From NCBI GenBank assembly GCA_963575645.1, contig OY754468.1:4030001-4094000 (forward strand): a stretch of 64,000 bases of DNA. Reading direction: 5' to 3'. Both the position numbers and the translations under genes were made by a program. The notes below the pieces were generated by a model, which made no database searches, was not told the origin of the DNA, and worked only from the letters and a program-made list of their open reading frames with translations. This document shows, one piece after another, positions 330 to 59,602 of this stretch; the first letter of the stretch is position 1, and every line of letters begins with the position of its first letter. This DNA comes from Xanthostigma xanthostigma (lineage: Eukaryota > Arthropoda > Insecta > Raphidioptera > Raphidiidae).

Positions 330-1000
330 GATTATCGAAAAGTTGTCTGATTAGTAAGGTGCTACACTGAATTTGTCTGATATAAATTTTTTCTATATCT
401 GGACAACTTATTTTATCACGTCTAACAATTTTCAGACGAATTGCTATGTTACCGATCGGTAAAATTTCTTAACGTTTTCAAAACGGTCTTAAAATTTAAT
501 GTGCTCACATTTTCTTCTGAAAAATGATTCTTTCGCATAAACTGACCCAAATTCACTCGTGAAAAGGATTTTCAGACGTTTTGCTATGATACTTTTTTTT
601 TTGTCTCATTTCTAATTTTTTTAAGTGGTCTCCCGGGTACACGCTACGCTAGTGGCGTCTGAAAAACGTGTTTTCCATATCTTAGACCTATCATTCAACT
701 ACATTCTGAAAATCAGACGGATTGCTATGATACAGTTTGGTAAAATTTATTGACATTTTTGAAAATTTGGTTAGGTCTGACGATACACGGAAAATTTCTG
801 ATATTGCGATTTTCGGGTTCAGGATAATCGAATCTATCAATTTGATGCGGTTTTCGTCGTATTGCTATGAGACAAAAATTTTGGTCGTGGGCTCTCGTAC
901 TAATAGTGTAAATTATAAAATGTATATGTTAATTAAAAAAAGAAACATCAGAGACGGTTTAGTTAGAAATACATCGATTGTATAACAAAGGTTTTCAAAG
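330..1000. repeat. Diverged 140-bp tandem array, about 4-5 units
   Basis: The box TTGCTATG occurs at 441, 581, 722 and 862, so the spacing is 140, 141 and 140 bp. It is usually preceded by TCAGACG or a close variant. Other words keep the same phase: GGTAAAATTT at 459 and 739, and GTCTGA...ATAT near 375 and 655. The units are otherwise strongly diverged, so this is an old array that only shows through spacing. An 82-codon open frame (737-985) lies inside it and is probably incidental. Confidence 0.6.
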
Positions 1001-3660: not shown

Positions 3661-4698
3661 AAACTTGCATTTAATGCTGACGTTTCTATTAAATTTTGTA
3701 TCATCTTCAGAGTTTTCTGTAATTATATTTTCTTTGTTATAAAATTGTTTTAAATGTTTTAGTTATATTAGTTATTTTATGTAACAGAAAGTAAATTTTT
3801 ATTTGATTCGTTTAATTTGAATCTGATTATTAATAAATGTATAAAACGAAACATTTCACTACCGTTATAAATTTAAATCGTTCAAAGTGAGTAGCGCTAT
3901 ACCGGTTGTCAAAAATACATTTGAAATTAATGAATTTGCAAAGAATCAATATCAGATAAGCAGGGGGTCTACCCAAAACCGAAAAACATGGCAAGTGGTC
4001 TACGAGACAAAAAAGTTTGGGAACCTCTGCTCTAGACCCTAGGCCGCAACAACTGTCCTCTGCGTATGTCCATAGCTACTGCCTTAAAAAGTTTGGACAT
4101 TTTCCTTTTATTACAACACGTTTTTTAATCATAATTAAGATAAGGTAGGAAACATTTGATGTGATATAATTTGGGCAAATAATCGACAGTATATATCATA
4201 TCTTCTCTTTAGCTTACTTGAAAGTCTGCATGTGTCCAAGAGAAACAACGTGGGAGAAATTGCAAGGCGGTGTAAACATTGTATTTAAAAACATTTTACC
4301 TACTGTTTTTCAACAAACTAAAGGCCACTGCACACGAGGCTAGAAACGCTGCTAGATTCTTTGCTAGATTTGCCTACTAGTTTTCTAGCCCTGTTTTTCT
4401 CGATTGCTGTTAAGTGCTCACTTCACACGAGACTATTTTTCAAGCTTGATTTGTAGATAGATCTGGTGCGCGCGCAGTGACAGTTCGAATATAAACACAA
4501 AGCAAAACGTGTCTGTTGTCTGACTCTAAACAGAATGCGACACCATGTTGGTTTGTGGGTGTTTGTTCAAGTGCCCACGTGACAAGATACTGCTTCCTGA
4601 TTGGTTCTTGCTCATACCTAGCAGCAAATCTTGCAAGGAAACTAGCCCTTGTTCTAATTTTAAAACCTATCTTGTGCCCTAGCAGGACAGCCCGCAGT

Positions 4699-7697: not shown

Positions 7698-8312
7698 TCT
7701 ATAGGTACTAATAATATATAAAGCAGAAGAGTTTGTATGTTTGTTTGAACGCGCTAATCTCAGGAACTACTGGTTCAAATTGAAAAAAAAAATTGTTGGA
7801 TAGCCCATTTATCGAGGAAGGCTATAGGCTATATAATATCACGCTACGACCATTAGGAGCGGAGCATTAATGAAAAATGTTGCAAATCTAACTCAAAAAT
7901 AAGCTTCTATTCAGGTGAAATTCACTAACTAAATATACTCATATTAGCGTTGTGAGTACACAACCCCTGCTGGCTCAATCGGCAGAGCATGCGACTGTCA
8001 ATATCAGGGTCGTGGGTTCGAGCCCCACGTTGGGCGAATATACTTTTATTTTTTTTTTATTTTCTACATTGCTTTTTCTAAGGCTTACATTTAAATTTAT
8101 TTTAATTTTATTTAATTAATTAAAAAAAAATTATTAGTTTAAAAAAGTATAAGTACTGCTTTTTATCGACAAAAACTTTTGAACGGTAACTCCGATTATC
8201 ATGAAATTTGGAGACATTCATTTCGGTAAAATAAGATGAATGTGTGTACTCACGTTCCTCCCTTCCCCATTCGTTCTTTTTACACCCGGGTGAAACCGGA
8301 CGGGACCGCTAG
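7698..8312 (+). mobile_element. Helitron-like element with tRNA-Lys-like cassette (copy H1)
   Basis: It starts TCTATAGGTACTAATAATA and ends with the hairpin CACCCGGGTG followed by GGACCGCTAG. It sits between A (7,697) and T (8,313), the border expected for Helitron insertion (5'-TC, 3'-CTRR, A/T target). The middle holds a 73-bp tRNA-Lys-like segment. There is no Rep/helicase frame, so it is non-autonomous. Other copies are at 9,318, 34,634, 61,560 and, as a 3' fragment, 25,979. Confidence 0.85.
7964..8036 (+). other. tRNA-Lys-like segment within Helitron H1
   Basis: The A-box region reads TGGCTCAATCGGCAGAGC. The T-arm reads CGTGGGTTCGAGCCCCACG and is perfectly paired. The length is 73 bp, as for tRNA-Lys. 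The anticodon position reads GTC instead of CTT and the acceptor 5' strand is degenerate. It is therefore a tRNA-derived module rather than a working tRNA gene, although A- and B-boxes for Pol III remain. Confidence 0.75.
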
Positions 8313-9317: not shown

Positions 9318-9865
9318 CTAGCGGTCCTGTCCGGTTTCACCCAGGTGTAAAAGAACGAACGGGGAAGGGAGGACCATGAGTACACACATTCATCTTAGTT
9401 TACCGAGATGAATGTTGTGTCCAAATTTCATGATGATCGGAGTTACCGTTCAAAAGTTTTTAAATTTAAGCCTTAGAAGAAAGCAATGTAAAAAATAAAA
9501 AAAAAATAAGAATACATTCGCCCAACGTGGGGCTCGAACACACGACCCCGATATTGACAGTCGCATGCTCTACCGATTGATTCACCTGAGGTTGTGTAAG
9601 TGTTCTCACAACGCTAATATGAGTATATCTAGTTAGTGCATTTCACATGAATAGAAGCTTATTTTTGAGATACATTTTGCAACATTTTTCATTAAAGCTC
9701 CGCTCCTAATGGTCGTAGCGTAATATTATATAGCCTATAGCCTTCCTCAATAAATGGGCTAACCAAAAAAATTTTTTTTTTCAATTTGAACCAGTAGTTC
9801 CTGAGATTAGCGCGTTCAAACAAACAAATAAACAAACACTCTTCAGCTCTATATATTAGTATAGA
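9318..9865 (-). mobile_element. Helitron-like element with tRNA-Lys-like cassette (copy H2)
   Basis: This is the reverse-strand copy. It starts TCTATACTAATATATAGAG and ends ACCGCTAG. The flanking bases are A and T in element orientation, as for H1. The tRNA-like part is 9,519-9,591 (-), with anticodon position GTC. It faces H1 at a distance of about 1 kb. Confidence 0.85.
9519..9591 (-). other. tRNA-Lys-like segment within Helitron H2
   Basis: It has the same 73-bp module as H1. The T-arm loop reads GTTCGAG, but the stem has a substitution (ACACGA on the plus strand). It is decayed. Confidence 0.7.
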
Positions 9866-9906
9866 TTTATTGGGTAGTTAAAACACTTTATTTTTTAAAT
9901 TGCTAC

Positions 9907-9936
9907 GTTTCGTCCTATACTTTGGACTTCATCTGG
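9907..9936 (-). ncRNA. Hammerhead-like core motif (left arm)
   Basis: On the minus strand it reads CAGATGA, A, GTCC, an 8-base loop, GGAC, GAAAC. The first core box has one change from CTGATGA. The GTCC/GGAC stem is intact. Confidence 0.4.
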
Positions 9937-10049
9937 CTCAAAAATATAAAAATGTTATTAATAACATATTGTTGTTTCATTATCATAAAATTTACATGGA
10001 TTCCATTGTTATTAATAACATATTGTTGTATATTATTTTATTTTAGAGC

Positions 10050-10078
10050 CTGATGAAGTCCAAAGTTTAGGACGAAAC
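10050..10078 (+). ncRNA. Hammerhead-like core motif (right arm)
   Basis: It reads CTGATGA, one extra A, GTCC, loop AAAGTTTA, GGAC, GAAAC. This is the CUGANGA / stem II / GAAA order of a type I hammerhead core, except for one additional base before the stem. Whether it can cleave is unknown. Confidence 0.5.
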
Positions 10079-10130
10079 GTAGCAATTTAAAAAATAAAGT
10101 GTTTTAACTTAATCGTCCAATAAATAACTT

Positions 10131-10690
10131 ATACCTACTCATATACCAAGGACAATAGATAGGTATTAACAATATTGCAATATTAGGTATGTCAAGTAAT
10201 AAAAATATATATTTTACTATATTCTTTAATAAATTCAATATTGTATAGGTAATTTGATGTGTAATACGACATACGTTACCAACAACGTATGACAATGCCT
10301 TTAATCCGTTTATTGTGTTTTATACAGGCATGTTTTATAAACATGTCCTGCAGCCTTATTATTTACGTGTCAACACACCGTATAATATTTCCTTCTTGAA
10401 TTGGTAAATGCTAGGTAAATAATAACCGTTTCTCAAATTACTAACCGTGTATATAAATATTTGATAGATTATCCAGTGCGTGTATTTTTCAACCATATAT
10501 ACGGATTATCTTACACGCGATATAAACAGAAAGTGAAATTATTTTTTAATAAACTATTATCTGTGCTATTATACCTAACACCTTTTTGCACTATACCTCC
10601 CATAAAATAGTTGCTTCGCATGCATGAATACGGGTTTGTAAAGTAACACATTACGCATTAGTTCGGTATACTAAAATTACATTCTTTAGA
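10131..10690. other. AT-rich, no recognised feature
   Basis: Nothing is supported here. Confidence 0.4.
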
Positions 10691-23884: not shown

Positions 23885-24140
23885 GTATAGCTAGACCAGT
23901 TTTTTGTAAATAAGTTACAGAGTTACACACAAAGAAGTTTTGAGAAACAACTAAATTAGTTAGAGTCATAATGTCTTGTATTATGTAAGGATAGATTTTT
24001 GATTTATGTACAATTTTATAAAGAACAGACAGACAAACCTCAGTTGATACTGACGGAAATAAATTAACAACATCGAAGCTAACCAAAATAGAATTATTAG
24101 GAATATCTAGTAATATTTTTAATTTTAATCTTAATAGACA
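23885..24140 (-). pseudogene. Penelope-type reverse transcriptase, inverted 5' part
   Basis: On the minus strand it reads LLRLKLKILLDIPNNSIL, VSFDVVNLFPSV, then NFFVCNSVTYLQKTGLA. VSFDVVxLF holds the first catalytic Asp block, and QKTGLA corresponds to the QTDGVAMGS-type block of Penelope reverse transcriptases. It ends abruptly at repeat B and is joined head-to-head with the plus-strand part at about 24,140. Confidence 0.8.
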
Positions 24141-24692
24141 AATCCATGAACCAACATAGCTTTTCTATCTATAGAAAACCATGCTATACTGACAACTTAA
24201 TTAATTTCAATTCATGGCATCCCTTATCTCAGAAATTAGCATCGTTTAATTGTTTACTCCAAAGACTTTTTACTTATAATTTAGATACTCAGAATTTCAA
24301 CAAAGAGTATAAAATTATACAACAGTTAGCACTCAATAATGACTTTCCATTAACGATGATTCATTCTCTGTTTAATAAATTTAAAAAAAGATTCAATTTA
24401 CGCTCAAACACTACTCTCTCTCTTTTTAAAGGCTCAATAAATCAAAAATTCGGATCCCTTACTTATTGTGGAAAATGGTTGTATTTTTTAAAAGAGATCT
24501 CTAAATATAATATAACAATTGCATTTAAATCAAAAGGCAGCTTGGGACAACTATTGGTCAGAAACAAAGACACGGTTGTAGTGGTGTTTACAAACTTACT
24601 TGTAAAAATTGTGACTCTTATTACATAGGGAAAACTCAAAGAAAGTTTAAAGAAAGACTAAGAGGGCACTTACACAATCTACCCAACACTAA

Positions 24693-24902
24693 GGCCTAGT
24701 TTATATGAGAGGCGTTCAACGCGCGTTGGCCCAACGCGCGTTTACAGTTTCTATACAATTGTATAGAACTGTTTATATGATAACGCGCGTTCAACGCGCC
24801 ACCAACGCGCGTTATCATATAAACAGTCCTATACAATTGTATAGAAACTGTAAACGCGCGTTGGGCTAACGCGCGTTGAACGCCTCTCATATAAACTAGG
24901 CC
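24693..24902. mobile_element. Palindromic MITE, GGCCTAGTTTATATGAGAGG family
   Basis: It is almost fully self-complementary. The ends are GGCCTAGTTTATATGAGAGG and its complement, and the inside repeats GTTCAACGCGCG and CTATACAATTGTATAG. It sits inside the endonuclease frame of the Penelope element. A tandemly amplified relative is at 58,829-59,226. Confidence 0.85.
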
Positions 24903-25443
24903 AATCAAATTTTGGCAAACATCTGTTTGAACTAGACCATAACTTTGACATTGACACTTGTTTTAAAATATTACACCGCATTGATTCATACATCTTAATT
25001 GATGTTTGTGAATTGTTTGAGATTAAGAGCGCCTTTAAGTTAAACACAAATAATTTTTGTTTAAATACCATAACAGACATAGCCGAATCTACTGTATTTG
25101 ATTTTTTGTTTAAATAACTCTGCTCATGACCTAGTGTTATATAATTTTTAACTAATTTTTTCAACCATTACTTTGTTTGAAATCTACTTGTGTCATTTTA
25201 TTGTGTTTTAATTACTTTCAATAGTTAATATTTTTTAATGTATTCATTTTTATTCTTGCTAGTGTATTATGTTTTGCTCCGTGAGGTAAACCTTTATTGA
25301 GTTTTTTCTATTTGTTTTAATACCATAATTCTTATTTTAACTGGGATTGTTTTATTTTTATTTTTTAGACACATCTATGATCTTAATAATCTTTTAATTT
25401 TATATAATCTTTTACATATATCGACAATTTTTTGAATTATCAC

Positions 25444-25471
25444 CTGATGATGACAACCATGTTGTCGAAAC
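25444..25471 (+). ncRNA. Hammerhead-like core motif in the Penelope tail
   Basis: CTGATGA, one T, GACAAC, loop CAT, GTTGTC, GAAAC: a six-pair stem between the two core boxes. It lies about 325 bp after the end of the endonuclease frame and shortly before AATAAA. Hammerhead motifs in Penelope-like elements are described in the literature; activity here is not shown. Confidence 0.55.
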
Positions 25472-25500
25472 ATGTTGTGTATTTTTGAATAAAGACTTTT

Positions 25501-28697: not shown

Positions 28698-29284
28698 TAT
28701 ATAAGACATCTTATAGTCGAAGTCTGGTATAATCGATTAGAATTAAAAATATAAATGGCAAGTGTGAATTATGCAAAATAGATCTTACATATATGTAGGT
28801 GCACATTTTGTGAGTATGGAACAGGTGCAGGGGCGTGAATAATTAATTAATATTCAAAGTCAGTGTGTCAAGCATTGACTAAAATGTTATCGCTCTATAA
28901 ACTAAGCTCATCTACTAGCAGATTTTGTTTTATAATCGCTCGAACGAGGGCGTCTTTATTTAAAAACATGGGTTGATACGGCCATAGCAAAGTAATATAC
29001 TTCACAGCAGTGTTGTTCTTTAACGGACTTGAAAATGTAATAATAATAATTAATAAGAAAACTCGCAGGATAGTGGACCAATTAGATTTCTTAATGTCCG
29101 ACGTTTCGTCTATAGATTTAGAATTTTTCAAGTACAATAAAAAATCTAAAACAATAATTATGAAAATAAACATTAATTACTATAGCCATAGCAATTAACA
29201 AAAGATAAGGTACATAAGACAAAAACATGGCAACACGTTTATGTATAAATTTTTAAACAATAAAAAATAATAAAAATTCGAAAG
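28698..29284. other. No recognised gene
   Basis: Overlapping open frames on both strands (62 and 92 codons) show no known domain. GACGTTTCGTCTATAG (29,100) may be a decayed tail motif like that at 10,050, read on the minus strand. Confidence 0.3.
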
Positions 29285-34633: not shown

Positions 34634-34979
34634 TGACGGCTGGCTCAATCGGTAGAGCATGCGACTGTAAATATCAGGGTCGTGGGTTCAAGCCCCACGT
34701 TGGGCGAATATATTTTTTTTATTTTCTACATTGCTTTCTTCTAAGGCTTATATTTAAATTTATTTTAATTTTATTTAATTAATTAAAAAAAAAAAGTATT
34801 AGTTAAAAAAAGTATAAATACTGCTTTTTATCGACAAAAACTTTTGAATGGTATCTCCGATCATCATGAAATTTGGACACAACATTCATCTCGGTAAACT
34901 AAGAAGAATGTGTGTACTCATGCTCCTCCCTTCCCCATTCGTTCTTTTACACCCGGGTGAAACCGGACGAGACCGCTAG
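34634..34979 (+). mobile_element. Helitron H-family, 5'-truncated (copy H3)
   Basis: It begins at the tRNA-Lys-like segment (34,634-34,706; anticodon position GTA) and runs to the terminal hairpin CACCCGGGTG and ACCGCTAG, followed by T. The part upstream of the tRNA-like module in H1 is absent, so the truncation point is about at the module's 5' edge. Confidence 0.8.
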
Positions 34980-36540: not shown

Positions 36541-36870
36541 TTGTCGACCAATTTGTTTTTGACTATATATTGACACAAATAAAATTATAAATCAATAATA
36601 CAAAATATGACGTTTCGATCTGGGTTTATATCTTCTTCAGAAATATCTAAAAATATAAAAAAATAATTAGTAAAATCTACTTATTTTATAATAGAACGCA
36701 AAATTATGAAAAATTATGAAAAATTAATAAAACGTCATATTTTGTATTATTGATTTATAATTTTATTTGTGTCAATATATATTATATATAGTCTGAAAAA
36801 AATTGGTCGGCAATTTTATTTATTTGAAGAGTTTTATTCAGACGTTAATCAAAGATTTAAATAAAAATAA
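36541..36870. repeat. Inverted pair of Penelope-type tails (second locus)
   Basis: The left arm 36,541-36,620 (-) and right arm 36,728-36,815 (+) both carry AAACGTCATATTTTGTATTA and TATAATTTTATTTGTGTCAA. The right arm continues into ATTGGTCGGCAATTTTATTT and CAGACGTTAATCAAAGATTT, which also occur at 44,470, 45,930 and 49,700. Confidence 0.6.
36612..36640 (-). ncRNA. Hammerhead-like core motif
   Basis: On the minus strand: CTGAAGA, A, GAT, a 10-base loop, ATC, GAAAC. The stem is three pairs. Confidence 0.4.
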
Positions 36871-39340: not shown

Positions 39341-39926
39341 TTACTCATAGTCATAAATCATAATATATAAAATTTACAACTGACCAACAAACATTCATTT
39401 TATTACAAATTACAACGCTGGGTATAGTTTGTTATCTTTGTCTAACGTTTTCCGCTACTCCAGTATTTTAATGGTATTTTCTTATACATTTTATTCATAT
39501 CTTGAGATACTGTGGGATAAATTTGGTTATACAACATGACCTTTTCGAGTAATTTCGCTGCATCGAGTGCTTGTTTAAGATTTTCTTTTACTCGCCATAT
39601 TCACAGTTTGCAAGTTTGTGGACAACTAAGAATATGATACCTTATAGATAAGCATGATGCCGACAACAAAGCAACAAAATAACAAACAAATACTGTTTAT
39701 TGCTTAATGATGACGTATTGTTGTCGTTATTTAGAGTATGAGTATGAGCAACAAGGTTAAGTAATTTCGACGTTTTAAGGAGTTTGTCGTTATATCTAGT
39801 GACGTTAAATGGACTGTATAAACCTAGCAATGGTTTTAGTATTATAAAGGTTCTTGATTTATGCATAAAACTGTTTTCGTTAAAAATGGATTAAATAAAA
39901 ATTTATTTGTGTTGCAATTTCAGATT
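39341..39926. promoter_or_regulatory. Upstream region of the SIAH-like gene
   Basis: It is non-coding. A good splice acceptor (GTTGCAATTTCAG, ending 39,923) precedes the ATG by three bases, so an upstream non-coding exon may exist here or further left. I cannot place a promoter. Confidence 0.35.
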
Positions 39927-41819
39927 ATGGACAATTCAACCACAAATGCGAAAGGTAGTATTACCGAACACTTTAAGTGCAACAAGTGTCAAGACTATTT
40001 AACACCACCGATATCTTTTTGTCTTGAAGGCCACATTATATGCAAGCATTGTGCAAATGAAAACGTGTGTCCACAATGTGGGAACGAATTATCAACGAAA
40101 CTAAATCAATTCATCGGCTGCTTTGCAAAAAATTTAAAAATTCCTTGTAAAAATATCAAAAACGGATGTCCACACGTTTACAAATGGAATGAAGAATTTG
40201 ATCATCTTAAAAAATGTGATTTTAGTACTTTTAAATGTCCTCTTAGTATTCAAACTGATTGCGACGTTTCTGAACGTGTCAACTGTGAATGGGAAGGCAC
40301 TTTAATTGATATGAAAAAACATATTATAGAAGAAACCCATAACGGCTTAATAAAAAGTGATGGTAAAAACTGCATGGTCTTATTTGACGTTAATTTGTCA
40401 AAAAAAATTGTTGTATATATCCAATATTAGTGGTTGATCAACTTTATTTAATACATCTAAAGCATACACCAGAAGAAATAGCAATAAGCGTGAACTACGT
40501 TGGGATTTTTGAAAATGCGGACAACTATGAAGTAGAACTTAAGATTAATAATTGCGATAATAGTTTGGCATTAACTTATAAATTAGAATGTAAACATCTT
40601 TCAAACAATGATACAAACTACGTAAAAGTAATACCAAACAGTGTTTTGGAATTTTTCAATAATGAAGATTCGATTTTAAACTGTTCTCTAAAACCAATAG
40701 CTCGGAATTCGATATTGAAAAGTTGCGATTCAATATTGATCGAAGCAGAGTGTCCAGTCTGTTCCGAATACATGGTATCCCATATTTATGTCTGCCAAAC
40801 GGGACACAGCATCTGTGAAAGTTGTAAATCAAGAGTTACTTATTGTCCAATATGCCACAGTATACTGGGAATTATAAGAAACTACAAACTGGAATCACTT
40901 ATTTCTAAGTTGCAGTTTCCGTGTGCTTTCAAATCAAAGGGTTGTACTGATTTACTAACGGCGAATCAACTTAAAGAGTACGAAGCGGCATGTAGTTTTG
41001 AAAAATATCGATGTCCAATTACACCTTGTATTTGGGAAGGCACACAAAATGAAATGCTCGTCCATGCCAAGGAGATTCATTACAGTTGGCTTACAAATAA
41101 ACTGAATATGACTATAACTCTTTTGACTGATTGGGAAACAACTGAAATTGCTAATGTCCAAGAGAAACCTTTCATATGTCATTACGTGAGAAATGTCGAT
41201 GAAAATCTGTTTTGTATCGCTGTTCAAACCTACGAAAACAACGCTTCAGACTATTACTATACCTTTGAAATTGGCAATAGAGAAAATAAGTATGACAGCA
41301 TACTATTTTTAGGTATTTTTTATTTTATCTGTACACAGATGGTTTTTTTAATTTTCAAATTCTGGATCGATAATACGCAACCTATGACCCGCGGGCCATA
41401 AGCGTCTCATACATTAACTTTTTGTCTACTTCTTACGCCGTTTGCGAATGTCAAATTAAAATGCAGATATGTTTATCTTGTTACTCACAACGACTGATTT
41501 ATTTTTTTAATTTTGTCTTTGAAAGCTGAACTTGTAAAATTTTGAAATTGTTTTTGCATCTATTTTTTGTTTCTGAACTAGTATAGAATTTAAATTCTTA
41601 ACTTTAATGCTTTTTTGAGCATAGCAAAGCTAACAAACAATTTTATTTTTAAGGTTCATTTCGGTACATGAAGTTTGCACAAACTACAAGGAACCCATAT
41701 CTGAAGTGATTAACAAAAAATGCTGTATTGTATTGAACATGGACTATGTAATGAAATTTTCGGATTATGAAGGCATATTATTTTGTAGCGGCAGAATTGA
41801 AAAAAATAATAATGCATAA
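39927..41819 (+). CDS. SIAH/SINA-like E3 ubiquitin ligase with two tandem domain units, frame broken
   Basis: The ATG is at 39,927 (IMDNSTTN). Unit 1 has a C3HC4 RING (C18, C21, C32, H36, C39, C42, C48, C51), then a SIAH zinc-finger region (IPCKNIKNGC ... CEWEGTLIDMKKH) and the start of a TRAF-like domain. Unit 2 repeats this: CPVC...VCQTGHSICESC...CPIC, then FPCAFKSKGC ... CIWEGTQNEM and a TRAF-like domain. SIAH family proteins bind substrates through this C-terminal part and an E2 through the RING. A GTATGA donor at 41,290 and an AG acceptor at 41,653 remove 364 bp; joining restores FISVHEVCTNYKEPISEVIN and a stop at 41,817. The frame breaks in A8 at 40,398-40,405, where one base is missing. 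Family proteins have one unit; this has two (about 510 residues). It may be a recent pseudogene, an assembly error or a real fusion. Confidence 0.8.
41290..41653 (+). other. Intron of the SIAH-like gene
   Basis: Donor AATAA/GTATGA and acceptor TTTTATTTTTAAG/GTTC join in phase 2 and restore a TRAF-like reading. If unspliced, the frame runs on to 41,401 with a hydrophobic, unrelated tail, which argues for splicing here. Confidence 0.65.
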
Positions 41820-49915: not shown

Positions 49916-50140
49916 TCCATATAATTTTATTTATTTTATCTATTTAACTGAAGAATAAAATTTACACGATTTCCGTATAGCTTTGCTGTTATTAAAAAAA
50001 TTATCTCTGTCACAAATCATTACGCACCGAGTGCGCCGGCCAAGTTCTCTCAAAGCACTCTGCTATATTTTATAAGATATATAAAATTATTTATTTACTT
50101 TTGTTAATAAAAATGTCTTCTTTAAAACCTATAAACTTGC

Positions 50141-50170
50141 CCGAAGAAGTAGCTAAACAATCTACGAAAC
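50141..50170 (+). ncRNA. Hammerhead-like core motif
   Basis: CCGAAGA, A, GTAG, loop CTAAACAAT, CTAC, GAAAC: a four-pair stem. The first core box has one change (CTGAAGA expected). It is followed by GTTGCG and an AT-rich tail. Confidence 0.4.
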
Positions 50171-50705
50171 GTTGCGTAAAATTTAGCATTTACTTTATTT
50201 AGTGACTTAATCCAAGAATTCCCATTATCCTACTATTCAATCTTTATAATATTAATGTCAAGTAAACCCCATTTTTGAAGAAGAAATATTGTCTGTCTGT
50301 CTATTGTTTGCTTATAACACGAGAACTACTATATCAATTTCGATAAATTATGTATCTAGAACGTGAACGATGTTATTATACGAGTAAATGACAATATTTT
50401 GAAATGAGAGTCAGTGTGTTTTAACAACAACATGGGTCACAATATCGTTACACTCGAGATACATACTTTATTTTTTGCACGTACCTCCTTTAAAATAACT
50501 GGTTTTACTTTATTTTCAAAATTGCTGGCAGTTCAATTTTGAGCAAAGTTCAGTCCTAACAATAGACTGCGTTGCAATCGCATGCGGTTGCATGAAATGA
50601 TAAAACGATTATGTTTCTTTCACTTTACGCAGCTTTACAGTAACTATTAACAGTGATGTGTCATTTTATAACCGCTATTCGTTGTCTGCGTCACGGCAGC
50701 ACCGC

Positions 50706-56869: not shown

Positions 56870-59602
56870 TCACTCGAGATCTGAAGATGAATCACTATGA
56901 GTAGAACTTACATTTTCCAACAATGGATCGATTCCTGGATTTAGGAGCTGTTGTTCCGGCAAAGAGCTTGAACCTGCAACATTTCTAGTCGTAGCAGATG
57001 TTTGTAAATATTTTAAAATATATCCTTCAAAGACATGTGTAACATCAGTTAATTCCAAAAGATACATATTGTTTCTTAATGCCCTTTCTTGAATATCTCT
57101 GTCCATTCTGTGGAGTTTAAGTTCTTTCATACATTTTCGAATATTTTCGATAGTCAACGTTTTATACTGCTTGAAATACAATACCACTTTCTTTCTTAGT
57201 TCCTCAGCAATATCAACATTATCGCTACTATGTTCTTCGCTATCTTGAAGATGTTCAATTTCTTCTGTATGAGTAGCCAAGCTGTTCATTATACCTTGTT
57301 GCACATCAGGACTTAATACTGATTCAGAAGACTCTGTAGACACACGGCGTTCGTTTGCTTGGCCGTACAGATCAGGTGTGAAAATTATATTAGCTCTATA
57401 TTTCGGAAAATCGACATTTCTATTTAAGATATCATCTTCTGATGATTGAATCTGTTGATTTTGTGTGCCACTACTATCAGATCGAGGATCACCGCTAGTA
57501 CCAGGTCGAGGACCACCGATTTTACCAGGTCGAGGACCACCGATTTTACCGGGCTGAGGTGCACCGCTAGTACCGGGCCGAGAATCATCGTCAGCACTAG
57601 GTCGAGAATCTCCACTAGTACCAGGTCGAGGATCACCGCTTTTACCAGGACTATCACTACTAATACCAGCTGGAGGATCATTGCTAGTACGAGATCGAGT
57701 ATCACCGCTTTTACCAGGCCGATGGTCACTGCTAATACCAGGTGGAGGATCACCAGATTGAGTATCATCGGTAGTACCAGTATCTCCGCTATTATCAGGC
57801 CGAGGATCTCTGCTAGTACCAGGCTGAAGTTCTGTAGTTGAATCAGACAGCATCGCACGCTTAGGGAAACTTAAATGAGCTTTTTGATTGCTTTCAGTTT
57901 TTCTTTTTCTGCGAGGCTCTGTAACTTCTTGAGCATTTCTGTGTCGTTCAGGCGCTAATTGATTAATTTGTTCTACGTTCGCATTCTGATCTTGTTGCGG
58001 TAAGTTTTCCGTAATTTCAATTGGCTCACCGAGAATGTTCTGCGAATCGCTTTGAGTAGGCTTGGCACGTGGTACACTTCCAGCTGTCTCATCCTGTTCA
58101 CTACTCTCTTCTACTTTACTACTACCATCCTCAGGAGTACATTGATCAATAGGTTCTCCTTGTCGATTAGTCCCGTCATTATCGACATTTTGTACGGCTT
58201 GGTTATTTTCATCGGGTTGTTCTAATGGGAGAGAACTATTTCCACCACCGTCACCAAAATAATCCGGTTCATTATCATTTCGATTATCAGGTACAGGTTG
58301 CTGGAGATATGGATTTATCAATAGATTGATGTGCTCTTCAACAATTCTTACAAATTCGATATATTTTTGTAAATGATTGCTGCGAATAAGTCTAATTTCG
58401 GGACTAATCTTCAAATTTGTAGTGTCTGTAGTGGAGTATGGTATATTTAAAAAATTCAATAAGTTCTCAAAACTTTCATTCAGAATTATATCTGGTAGTA
58501 AGATGCCATTTTCTACTCCACGCGCATTTTTATGAATCGCTCCCGTTACACAGGGACGAAAGTAATATTCGAATTGAACTGGAGTTCTTACGGATGAAAA
58601 ACCTAATTAAAAACAAAAATATATGAGTATTCATAGCCGTATACTAATATTATGAGCAGAGAGTGCGAATTTGGTTTGTGTATATGCGGAGGGCAATCTC
58701 CAAAATGACGATTTCAAAATTTTTTCATCAATATTTCTAATGAACCTTCAAGATTGACATCGGTCATAGGCTATATTATATAATCGCGTTAAAATACTTA
58801 AAATAAAATCGCTTGTCGTGGAGACAAAGGCCTAGTTTATATGAGAGGCGTTCAACGCGCCACCAACGCGCGTTATCATATAAACAGTTCTATACAATTG
58901 TATAGAAACTGTAAACGCGCGTTGGGCCAACGCGCGTTGAACGCCTCTCTTGAACGCGCGGTTATCATATAAACAGTTCTATACAATTGTATAGAAACTG
59001 TAAACGCGCGTTGGGCCAACGCGCGTTGAACGCCTCTCTTGAACGCGCGTTATCATATAAACAGTTCTATACAATTGTATAGAAACTGTAAACGCGCGTT
59101 GGGCCAACGCGCGTTGAACGCCTCTCTTGAACGCGCGTTATCATATAAACAGTTCTATACAATTGTATAGAAACTGTAAACGCGCGTTGGGCCAACGCGC
59201 GTTGAACGCCTCTCATGTAAACTAGTTTTTTTTTAATTTTTTACTTTATAAATCTCCTAATGATTTTGGATTTTTTACAGAAAATTTTCTCATACAAAAA
59301 TCTATTAAAAAAACTTTATTTCAGATTTTTTTCATTATCTTCGTAAAACGGCTCAACCTCCTTAAATTATAATTAAATATTTATGTAATATATTGTCTGA
59401 AAAATTGGTCTATAATTTTATTTATTAAAATCTATTATTTATACTATAAATACGTACCAAGTGTTCGTCGTGTATTGTTGTACCAGAAAAAAGGAAGGGT
59501 TGGAACAATATCCTGGATCCTGAGAGTCTCTTGATCAACCAATTCAACATCTACATCACCCTGCCCCGGTGATGCATCTTCATTCTCATTTTCAATGTCC
59601 AT
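56870..59602 (-). CDS. Two-exon gene, unknown acidic low-complexity protein (625 aa)
   Basis: Exon 1 is 59,602-59,458: ATG in a good context (AACATGG), reading MDIENENEDASPGQGDVDVE. Exon 2 is 58,602-56,870 with TGA at 56,872-56,870. The donor G/GTACGT and acceptor TTTTTAATTAG/G join in phase 1; total coding length 1,878 nt, an exact multiple of three. Across the junction it reads NNTRRTLGFSSVRTPVQFEY. Features: a more ordered N-terminus (about 1-150), then a Gln/Asn/Glu/Asp-rich disordered part and a basic stretch (EPRRKRKTESNQK). A tract of about 120 residues follows, with PGTSGDPR/PGKSGDPR-like 9-residue repeats and collagen-like composition. A helical C-terminus (EELRKKVVLYFKQY) and a Ser/Asp/Glu tail close it. 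No signal peptide or membrane segment. I do not recognise the family; the basic stretch could serve nuclear import. Confidence 0.65.
57446..57858 (-). repeat. 27-bp-type coding minisatellite in the two-exon gene
   Basis: The 9-codon unit (roughly CCTGGTACTAGCGGTGATCC on the minus strand) recurs about 13 times with substitutions and some length changes. It stays open in the other frames too, which explains the long antisense and shifted frames at this spot (57,424-57,858); those are shadows. Confidence 0.75.
58603..59457 (-). other. Intron of the two-exon gene
   Basis: 855 bp, GT...AG. It contains the amplified MITE at 58,829-59,226 and a tail sequence TATATTGTCTGAAAAATTGG (59,390-59,410). 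Confidence 0.6.
58829..59226. mobile_element. GGCCTAGTTTATATGAGAGG MITE, internally amplified 88-bp tandem x4
   Basis: The left end is the same as at 24,693. TTATCATATAAACAG occurs at 58,873, 58,962, 59,050 and 59,138, a period of 88-89 bp. Each unit holds CTATACAATTGTATAG and GTTGGGCCAACGCGCGTTG. It ends CTCTCATGTAAACTAGT. It lies in the intron of the two-exon gene. Confidence 0.85.

Follow-up and report, generated by a model that had tools for sequence, protein, structure and literature searches.

Minimal hammerhead ribozymes of Penelope-like elements (PLEs) are a published class (Cervera & de la Pena 2014; Lunse, Weinberg & Breaker 2017, as described by papers that cite them). The PLE enzyme of Anolis cuts and extends both target strands in vitro (PMC11167929), and metazoan retrozymes are described, in the available text of PMC7229834, as direct tandem repeats of 150-450 bp with canonical cores. 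The plus-strand hammerhead of the viroid CChMVd has an extra A10 that moderately lowers cleavage, and at this insertion U is faster than A while C and G are very harmful (PMC3705267, available text). Stem II is said to allow at most one or two inserted nucleotides beside CUGANGA (PMC10085705, available text). A preliminary description of the DNA analysed here (the window: a 64,000-nt stretch of the 623-Mb genome of Xanthostigma xanthostigma, C5:4,030,001-4,094,000) proposed hammerhead-like motifs with covarying stems, and that reading is correct in kind, with PLEs carrying such ribozymes already in print. The motif belongs to this published class, the PLE minimal hammerheads. Judged by its sequence, it forms a genuine RNA fold, that of self-cleaving hammerheads, and is present in thousands of copies on Penelope-type elements. 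Our main reading, to which we assign a probability of roughly 0.86, is that these are PLE minimal type I hammerhead ribozymes residing in PLE repeats, predicted to cut as dimers and to be slowed by one extra base.

At all five sites first reported in the window, the stems, the single extra base before stem II and GAAAC are present as described, but the first core box, CTGANGA, is intact at only three of them: 10,050(+), 25,444(+) and 36,640(-), the last with a stem II of just 3 bp. The claim of an intact box throughout overrated the core match at the other two, which each carry one core substitution, U4 to A at 9,907(-) and U4 to C at 50,141(+). The strict motif with one extra base (the +1 form) and a stem of at least 3 bp occurs three times in the window, compared with 0.025 on average over 200 dinucleotide shuffles, none of which reaches three. 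A covariance model, R2, built on 21 rows of which the 10,050 copy is one, recovers all five sites with E-values from 5.1e-11 to 9.6e-5, and finds two additional window copies below E 0.01 (Table 1); an eighth match, at 461-525(-) with E 0.55, was left out of the count. The Rfam hammerhead models gave no match in the window at gathering score and none in 10 loci up to E 10, where this permissive Rfam search returned mostly miRNA-hairpin matches to inverted pairs. In the sequences tried, the Rfam models miss an abundant +1 class.

Table 1. Hammerhead copies and Penelope-like coding pieces in the window
Feature	Position	Strand	Basis	Details
Complete +1 minimal type I hammerhead	10044..10091	+	R2, 47.6 bits (training row)	Stem I GC/GC (2 bp), core CTGATGA, extra A, stem II GTCC/GGAC, GAAA, then palindromic stem III ACGT, H17 = A
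Inverted partner of the 10,050 copy	9894..9941	-	R2 and core reading	Stem II identical, core decayed to CAGATGA
Short inverted-pair element	9850..10145	.	Arms of 86 and 96 nt	Hammerhead in each arm, 3' tails facing outward
Complete +1 hammerhead	25438..25486	+	R2 and stem I test	Stem I CAC/GTG, extra T, stem II GACAAC/GTTGTC, stem III ACATGT, H17 = T
Decayed copy, similar to the abundant GATCC family	36599..36646	-	R2	CTGAAGA, extra A, stem II shrunk to GAT/ATC
Decayed copy	50135..50183	+	R2 and core reading	Core CCGAAGA, extra A, stem II GTAG/CTAC, stem III ACGT, stem I paired in part
Additional decayed copy, absent from the preliminary description	3669..3716	-	R2, E 4.5e-6	
Additional strongly decayed copy, absent from the preliminary description	29090..29137	-	R2, E 0.0029	
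Penelope-like ORF fragment	24101..24625	+	Pfam	Directly upstream of the endonuclease
GIY-YIG endonuclease fragment of Penelope-like element	24532..24696	+	PF01541, 27.8 bits (cut-off 22.6)	
Open piece past the inserted fold-back element	24905..25117	+	Reading of frame	Stop about 330 nt 5' of the hammerhead; read as the putative C-terminal end of the same Penelope-like ORF

Across the genome, CTGANGAN{10,30}CGAAAC has 21,256 matches against 642 for the reversed control, the tight +1 pattern CTGANGAWGN{8,24}CGAAACGTH has 15,843 against 1, and CTGANGAGN{8,24}CGAAACGTH, a form able to hold the canonical core, has 235 against 5. The genome place lists begin at contig C1 and run to about 100 places each. 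Within the first 100 places of the CTGANGAN list, which fixes no register, stem II reaches 4 bp or more after one extra base at 75 and after zero extra bases at none, the remaining places having short stems or none; among 100 listed CTGANGAG places, pairing is best with one extra base (G) at 51 and without it at 13, and 36 have no 4-bp stem. When pairing was not required, 69 of 86 box pairs from the window and from loci chosen in part for different-looking stems paired 4/4 in the +1 register, as against none in registers 0, 2 and 3 and five in register 4. Counted by sequence cluster, 27 of 38 pair fully in the +1 register and one in register 4, with none in any other register and 11 lacking full +1 pairing. 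The strict consensus, in which stem II starts right after A9, is therefore found in 0/86 box pairs; pairing after exactly one inserted nucleotide, in the 69, lies within the limit described for stem II. Because one natural ribozyme, that of the viroid, carries this insertion too, the failure of the strict register lowers only the claim to a canonical core.

Since 27 of the 38 clusters pair fully with the extra base and none without it, the extra base before stem II is, on this comparison, not decay. The preliminary description had left the choice between a structural variant and an inactive descendant; the former stands, and the latter suits individual degraded copies, 9,907 and 50,141 among them. 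It is not general, because three elements with long open frames (L311, L312 and L314) retain the +1 form. Among the first 100 places, an unselected list, the 75 with such a stem have A as the inserted base in 43, T in 31, G in one and C in none, in agreement with the viroid tolerances given in the available text of PMC3705267. The corresponding tally by family, T 10, A 9 and G 8 of 27, is not a frequency, as the list that supplied all eight G families was made with a pattern demanding G; L316, one of the eight, is also present in the CTGANGAN list. G does occur as the extra base in these eight families, though it is harmful in the viroid. G10.1 in 27/27 families is a consequence of how they were chosen, with C11.1 fixed by the search and full pairing asked, and is not independent evidence.

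The 27 families were likewise chosen by full stem II pairing, so that stem II is no independent test of the fold, whereas stem I is one: it links the nucleotide 5' of C3 with the one 3' of H17, and these flanks were not used in finding the motif. A palindrome begins, in most copies, with the final A of GAAA; the base that follows it is A, C or T, and the bases after H17 pair with those directly 5' of CTGANGA. The palindrome is ACGT in most families and ACATGT, ACAATTGT, ACTAGT or ATGTACAT elsewhere; as a stem III with a half-length of at least 2 and little or no loop, which supplies the A15.1-U16.1 pair of type I hammerheads, it is found in 25 of 27 families. The two families whose representative had no usable stem III palindrome were omitted from the stem I test. 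In the 25 that entered it, 64 of 75 stem I cells are Watson-Crick at the predicted offset, against 11-25 of 75 when slid by 1-4, and none of 5000 shuffles reaches 64 cells (top shuffle 44). Contiguous stem I pairing spans at least 3 bp in 19 of the 25 family representatives and 0-2 bp in six (L001, L006, L016, L303, L320 and window 10050), and the largest cluster, GATCC, with 17 of 86 contexts, is among the latter. H17 is T in 13 families, C in eight, A in four and G in none, a count that, like the ACGT palindrome, is not independent for families first found in the G-type and tight +1 lists, where ACGTH was built into the patterns.

An alignment of 21 family copies, which omits five families without ACGT in stem III and L316 with its long loop, pairs at 93.5% of cells and has a covariation of 0.844, against a shuffled mean of 0.191 and 0.129-0.197 for slid versions. 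Stem I alone pairs at 86.9% of cells in this alignment, with both-sided changes at all four pairs. The stem III columns are invariant and uninformative there, and the CUGANGA and GAAA boxes are invariant in 21/21 copies, but the boxes are the search key. Of the loci, L271-L290 were picked from the CTGANGAN list for variety, and L315-L328 by eye from the G-type and tight +1 lists for different-looking stems. The preliminary description had staked its fold on compensatory stem changes across the genome and on partners for stems I and III beside GAAAC. Both were looked for and both are present, in the covariation and in the 64 stem I cells, and the covarying pairing is confirmed between families in both stem II and stem I, the latter without any dependence on how the copies had been found. 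From these patterns of pairing, the copies are very probably minimal, dimer-type type I hammerheads.

The Penelope-like element that the preliminary description placed at the 25.4-kb copy is real, at 24.1-25.1 kb, with its GIY-YIG fragment about 750 nt upstream of the 25,444 copy. It is a relic that retains GIY-YIG only among the RT and GIY-YIG hallmarks. Its upstream ORF fragment, which we tentatively take to be the RT thumb region, matched no RT family in Pfam, and CAF1 alone appeared, below its cut-off. The endonuclease coding region is interrupted at 24696-24902 by a fold-back element with arms of about 99 nt that are 98% complementary; similar units recur in tandem at 58848-59225.

Beyond the window, 50 motif-centred loci yielded three more endonuclease fragments, each upstream of a same-strand motif, at 23.5 bits (L007), 22.0 bits (L008) and 18.5 bits (L287), two of the three falling below the 22.6 cut-off. 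A genome search with PF01541 returned at least 37 matches (150 of 521 candidates scored), of which 20 loci were taken, and 15 of these 20 have a same-strand R2 match (E ≤ 0.1) 3' of the endonuclease. Within the 15, the overlapping loci L300 and L302 have a single motif between them, the L295 and L296 matches are weak (E 0.035 and 0.013), and one family accounts for six loci, three of which (L307-L309) form a cluster. The other five comprise L292, with an opposite-strand match only, and four without a match.

One of these elements, L311, carries an 804-codon open frame with both RVT_1 (43.8 bits) and GIY-YIG (25.9 bits), flanked by a hammerhead 58 nt 5' and a second about 250 nt 3' of the frame. 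A 5'-truncated tandem copy accompanies it, as does an inverted 5'-truncated copy bearing its own hammerhead. Each outer end of the locus is a 3' tail, the two differing in length by about 34 nt, and a 13-bp sequence is common to the flanks. L311 thus has RT and GIY-YIG in one ORF, tandem pLTRs, an inverted truncated copy, an optional tail and a target-site duplication, as expected of a PLE, and similar layouts are described in the available text for Adineta (PMC3846280) and Anolis (PMC11167929). The pLTR location of the motif is borne out by the L311 copies that flank the long frame and by the 15 of 20 GIY-YIG loci. A search of a virus collection with the L311 protein found no PLE relatives.

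Some of these hammerheads have neighbouring sequences that resemble splice signals. Between the 5' hammerhead and the ORF of L311, at 3840-3912(-) of that locus, GGTAAGAAG is followed within about 30 nt by a T-rich stretch with TTAG at its end, though introns are rarely as short as this gap would make one. In L001, L014, L273, L274, L298 and at window 10,030-10,049, a run of pyrimidines that closes with AG also lies about 1-7 nt 5' of the hammerhead. Counting stem groups in which over half of the copies have it, the stretch is found in 7/9 A-type vs 0/7 T-type groups, the exceptions being one T-type group with 7/14 copies and, by eye, the T-type locus L298. It looks like a 3' splice site, and splicing there would alter distal stem I.

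Neighbouring copies have a marked preference in orientation. At distances under 1500 bp in the first CTGANGAN list, 20 neighbours are -+ (tail-out), none +- (tail-in), three ++ and two --, and in the later lists all 15/15 and 5/5 neighbours under 2000 bp are tail-out, the first of these lists having at least one pair in common with the CTGANGAN list. Chance resemblance among AT-rich repeats, which the shortness of the core boxes might invite, is next to impossible and is refuted by the 15,843 genome matches against one for the reversed pattern and by the window count that 0/200 shuffles match. That close neighbours almost always run (-) then (+), and that short elements are common, would also be expected if the outward pairs were ordinary foldback or MITE DNA transposons with the motif merely part of their terminal inverted repeats. 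We consider this very improbable, given that PLE endonuclease ORFs lie directly upstream on the same strand and that the ends of L273, L280, L290 and L311 differ by a tail of 27-34 nt. It would also leave the pairing of stems I, II and III unexplained. Flank repeats of 13-17 bp, as in PLEs according to the available text of PMC3846280, accompany 4 of 18 short pairs, three of these with tails differing by 27-33 nt, and among mismatched flank controls 23 of 283 reach 9 bp; the other 14 show no clear flank repeat, and the window element, one of them, no clear target-site duplication. On the strength of the upstream endonucleases, unequal tails and flank repeats we reject the DNA-transposon reading, and a metazoan retrozyme is rejected on the 20 tail-out inverted neighbours vs three ++ and two -- under 1500 bp. 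With the copies read as PLE hammerheads, we infer that the outward pairs could be integration products of an enzyme priming on both target strands.

Because stem III is self-complementary, it would pair two copies within a tandem transcript, and the resulting dimer would be cut. The +1 variant is compatible with a working, slowed ribozyme, and the extra base may slow cutting, which would keep most RNA whole long enough for translation and for copying by the PLE enzyme. In one family, a match extended through the cleavage site in 3-nt steps retains 838, 749, 677 and 638 copies, a loss of 9.6% across the site vs 10.6% and 5.8% at the neighbouring steps; in this family no excess of copies ends exactly at the cleavage site, and cleaved RNA has left no fossil trace. 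This leaves two options: RNA is seldom cleaved before it is copied, or the fold serves some other purpose. In the second case the PLE protein could recognise the folded structure, in template choice or RT start, with catalysis weak or irrelevant in vivo. The inserted copies of that family, which read through the cleavage site, are consistent with this, and so are two anole results, namely that PLE ribozyme mutants leave in vitro insertion unchanged and that RNA-seq showed no ends at the site; however, the anole ribozyme does cut once protein is added (PMC11167929). The copies in this genome keep the catalytic core and H17, and their stem I varies yet stays paired, whereas neither H17 nor U16.1 would have to be preserved in a signal that served binding alone. 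We therefore judge a purely structural role unlikely, if well short of negligible. If the copies are instead slowed ribozymes, the extra A or U between A9 and stem II might be a selected brake, fixed with rare exceptions in this genome's PLE hammerheads, in which a slow partner- or protein-gated ribozyme is kept so that whole RNA survives for copying, the same solution as in the viroid. We put this forward tentatively, at somewhat less than even odds. The 15,843 +1 matches in many families, together with the A/U preference, would allow a direct test of insertion as selected rate control.

Further matches and features were seen along the way. In the virus collection, among the matches listed, stem II reaches at least 4 bp in 37/127 canonical-pattern vs 11/120 +1-pattern matches, and one virus contig has a hammerhead-like sequence (L065 12754(+)) with the same one-base insertion and an apparently real stem III hairpin. 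Prokaryote contigs scanned with the pattern of one family gave five matching stretches. Within the window, 24-bp tandem repeats at 57439-57766 lie in a 578-codon minus-strand frame, and two adjacent frames at 39858-41401 have cysteine/histidine-rich RING-like stretches and presumably resemble seven-in-absentia type proteins. Matches to a tRNA model at 7964-8036 (34.7 bits) and 34641-34698 (30.5 bits), both near dispersed repeats, are perhaps SINE heads.

Set beside known systems, the motif comes closest to the PLE minimal hammerheads, which according to citing papers are likewise of type I with stem III reduced or absent, reside in PLE repeats, are dispersed in thousands and are thought to be dimeric; here the +1 register is the sole fully pairing one, bar one register-4 cluster, which may set these copies apart from that published form. 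To this class our analysis contributes a many-family test of stem I and of the palindromic stem III, and it documents the +1 register and its A/U preference in this genome, the occurrence of that form in a PLE whose reading frame is open and, for one family, the lack of a cleavage-end trace. The Poseidon hammerhead of Anolis carolinensis shares the setting, a PLE with the ribozyme at the start of the ORF/pLTR, as well as the cutting and extension of both target strands and the two RT start sites that give an optional tail (PMC11167929). From the wording of that paper, the anole core would also have an extra U (CUGANG-AUG). A conserved coding start at the core ATG (A9-T-G10.1) is rejected here, as its frame closes within 3-9 codons in L311, L312 and L314, and in this these elements differ from Poseidon. 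Metazoan retrozymes, in the available text of PMC7229834, also hold type I hammerheads in small repeated elements, but here most close pairs are inverted, their tails pointing outward, and an extra base is present in the cores. The CChMVd hammerhead, in the available text of PMC3705267, has the same single extra base between A9 and G10.1 and tolerates A or U there; in the viroid this is one ribozyme, whereas here the insertion recurs in many families within one genome.
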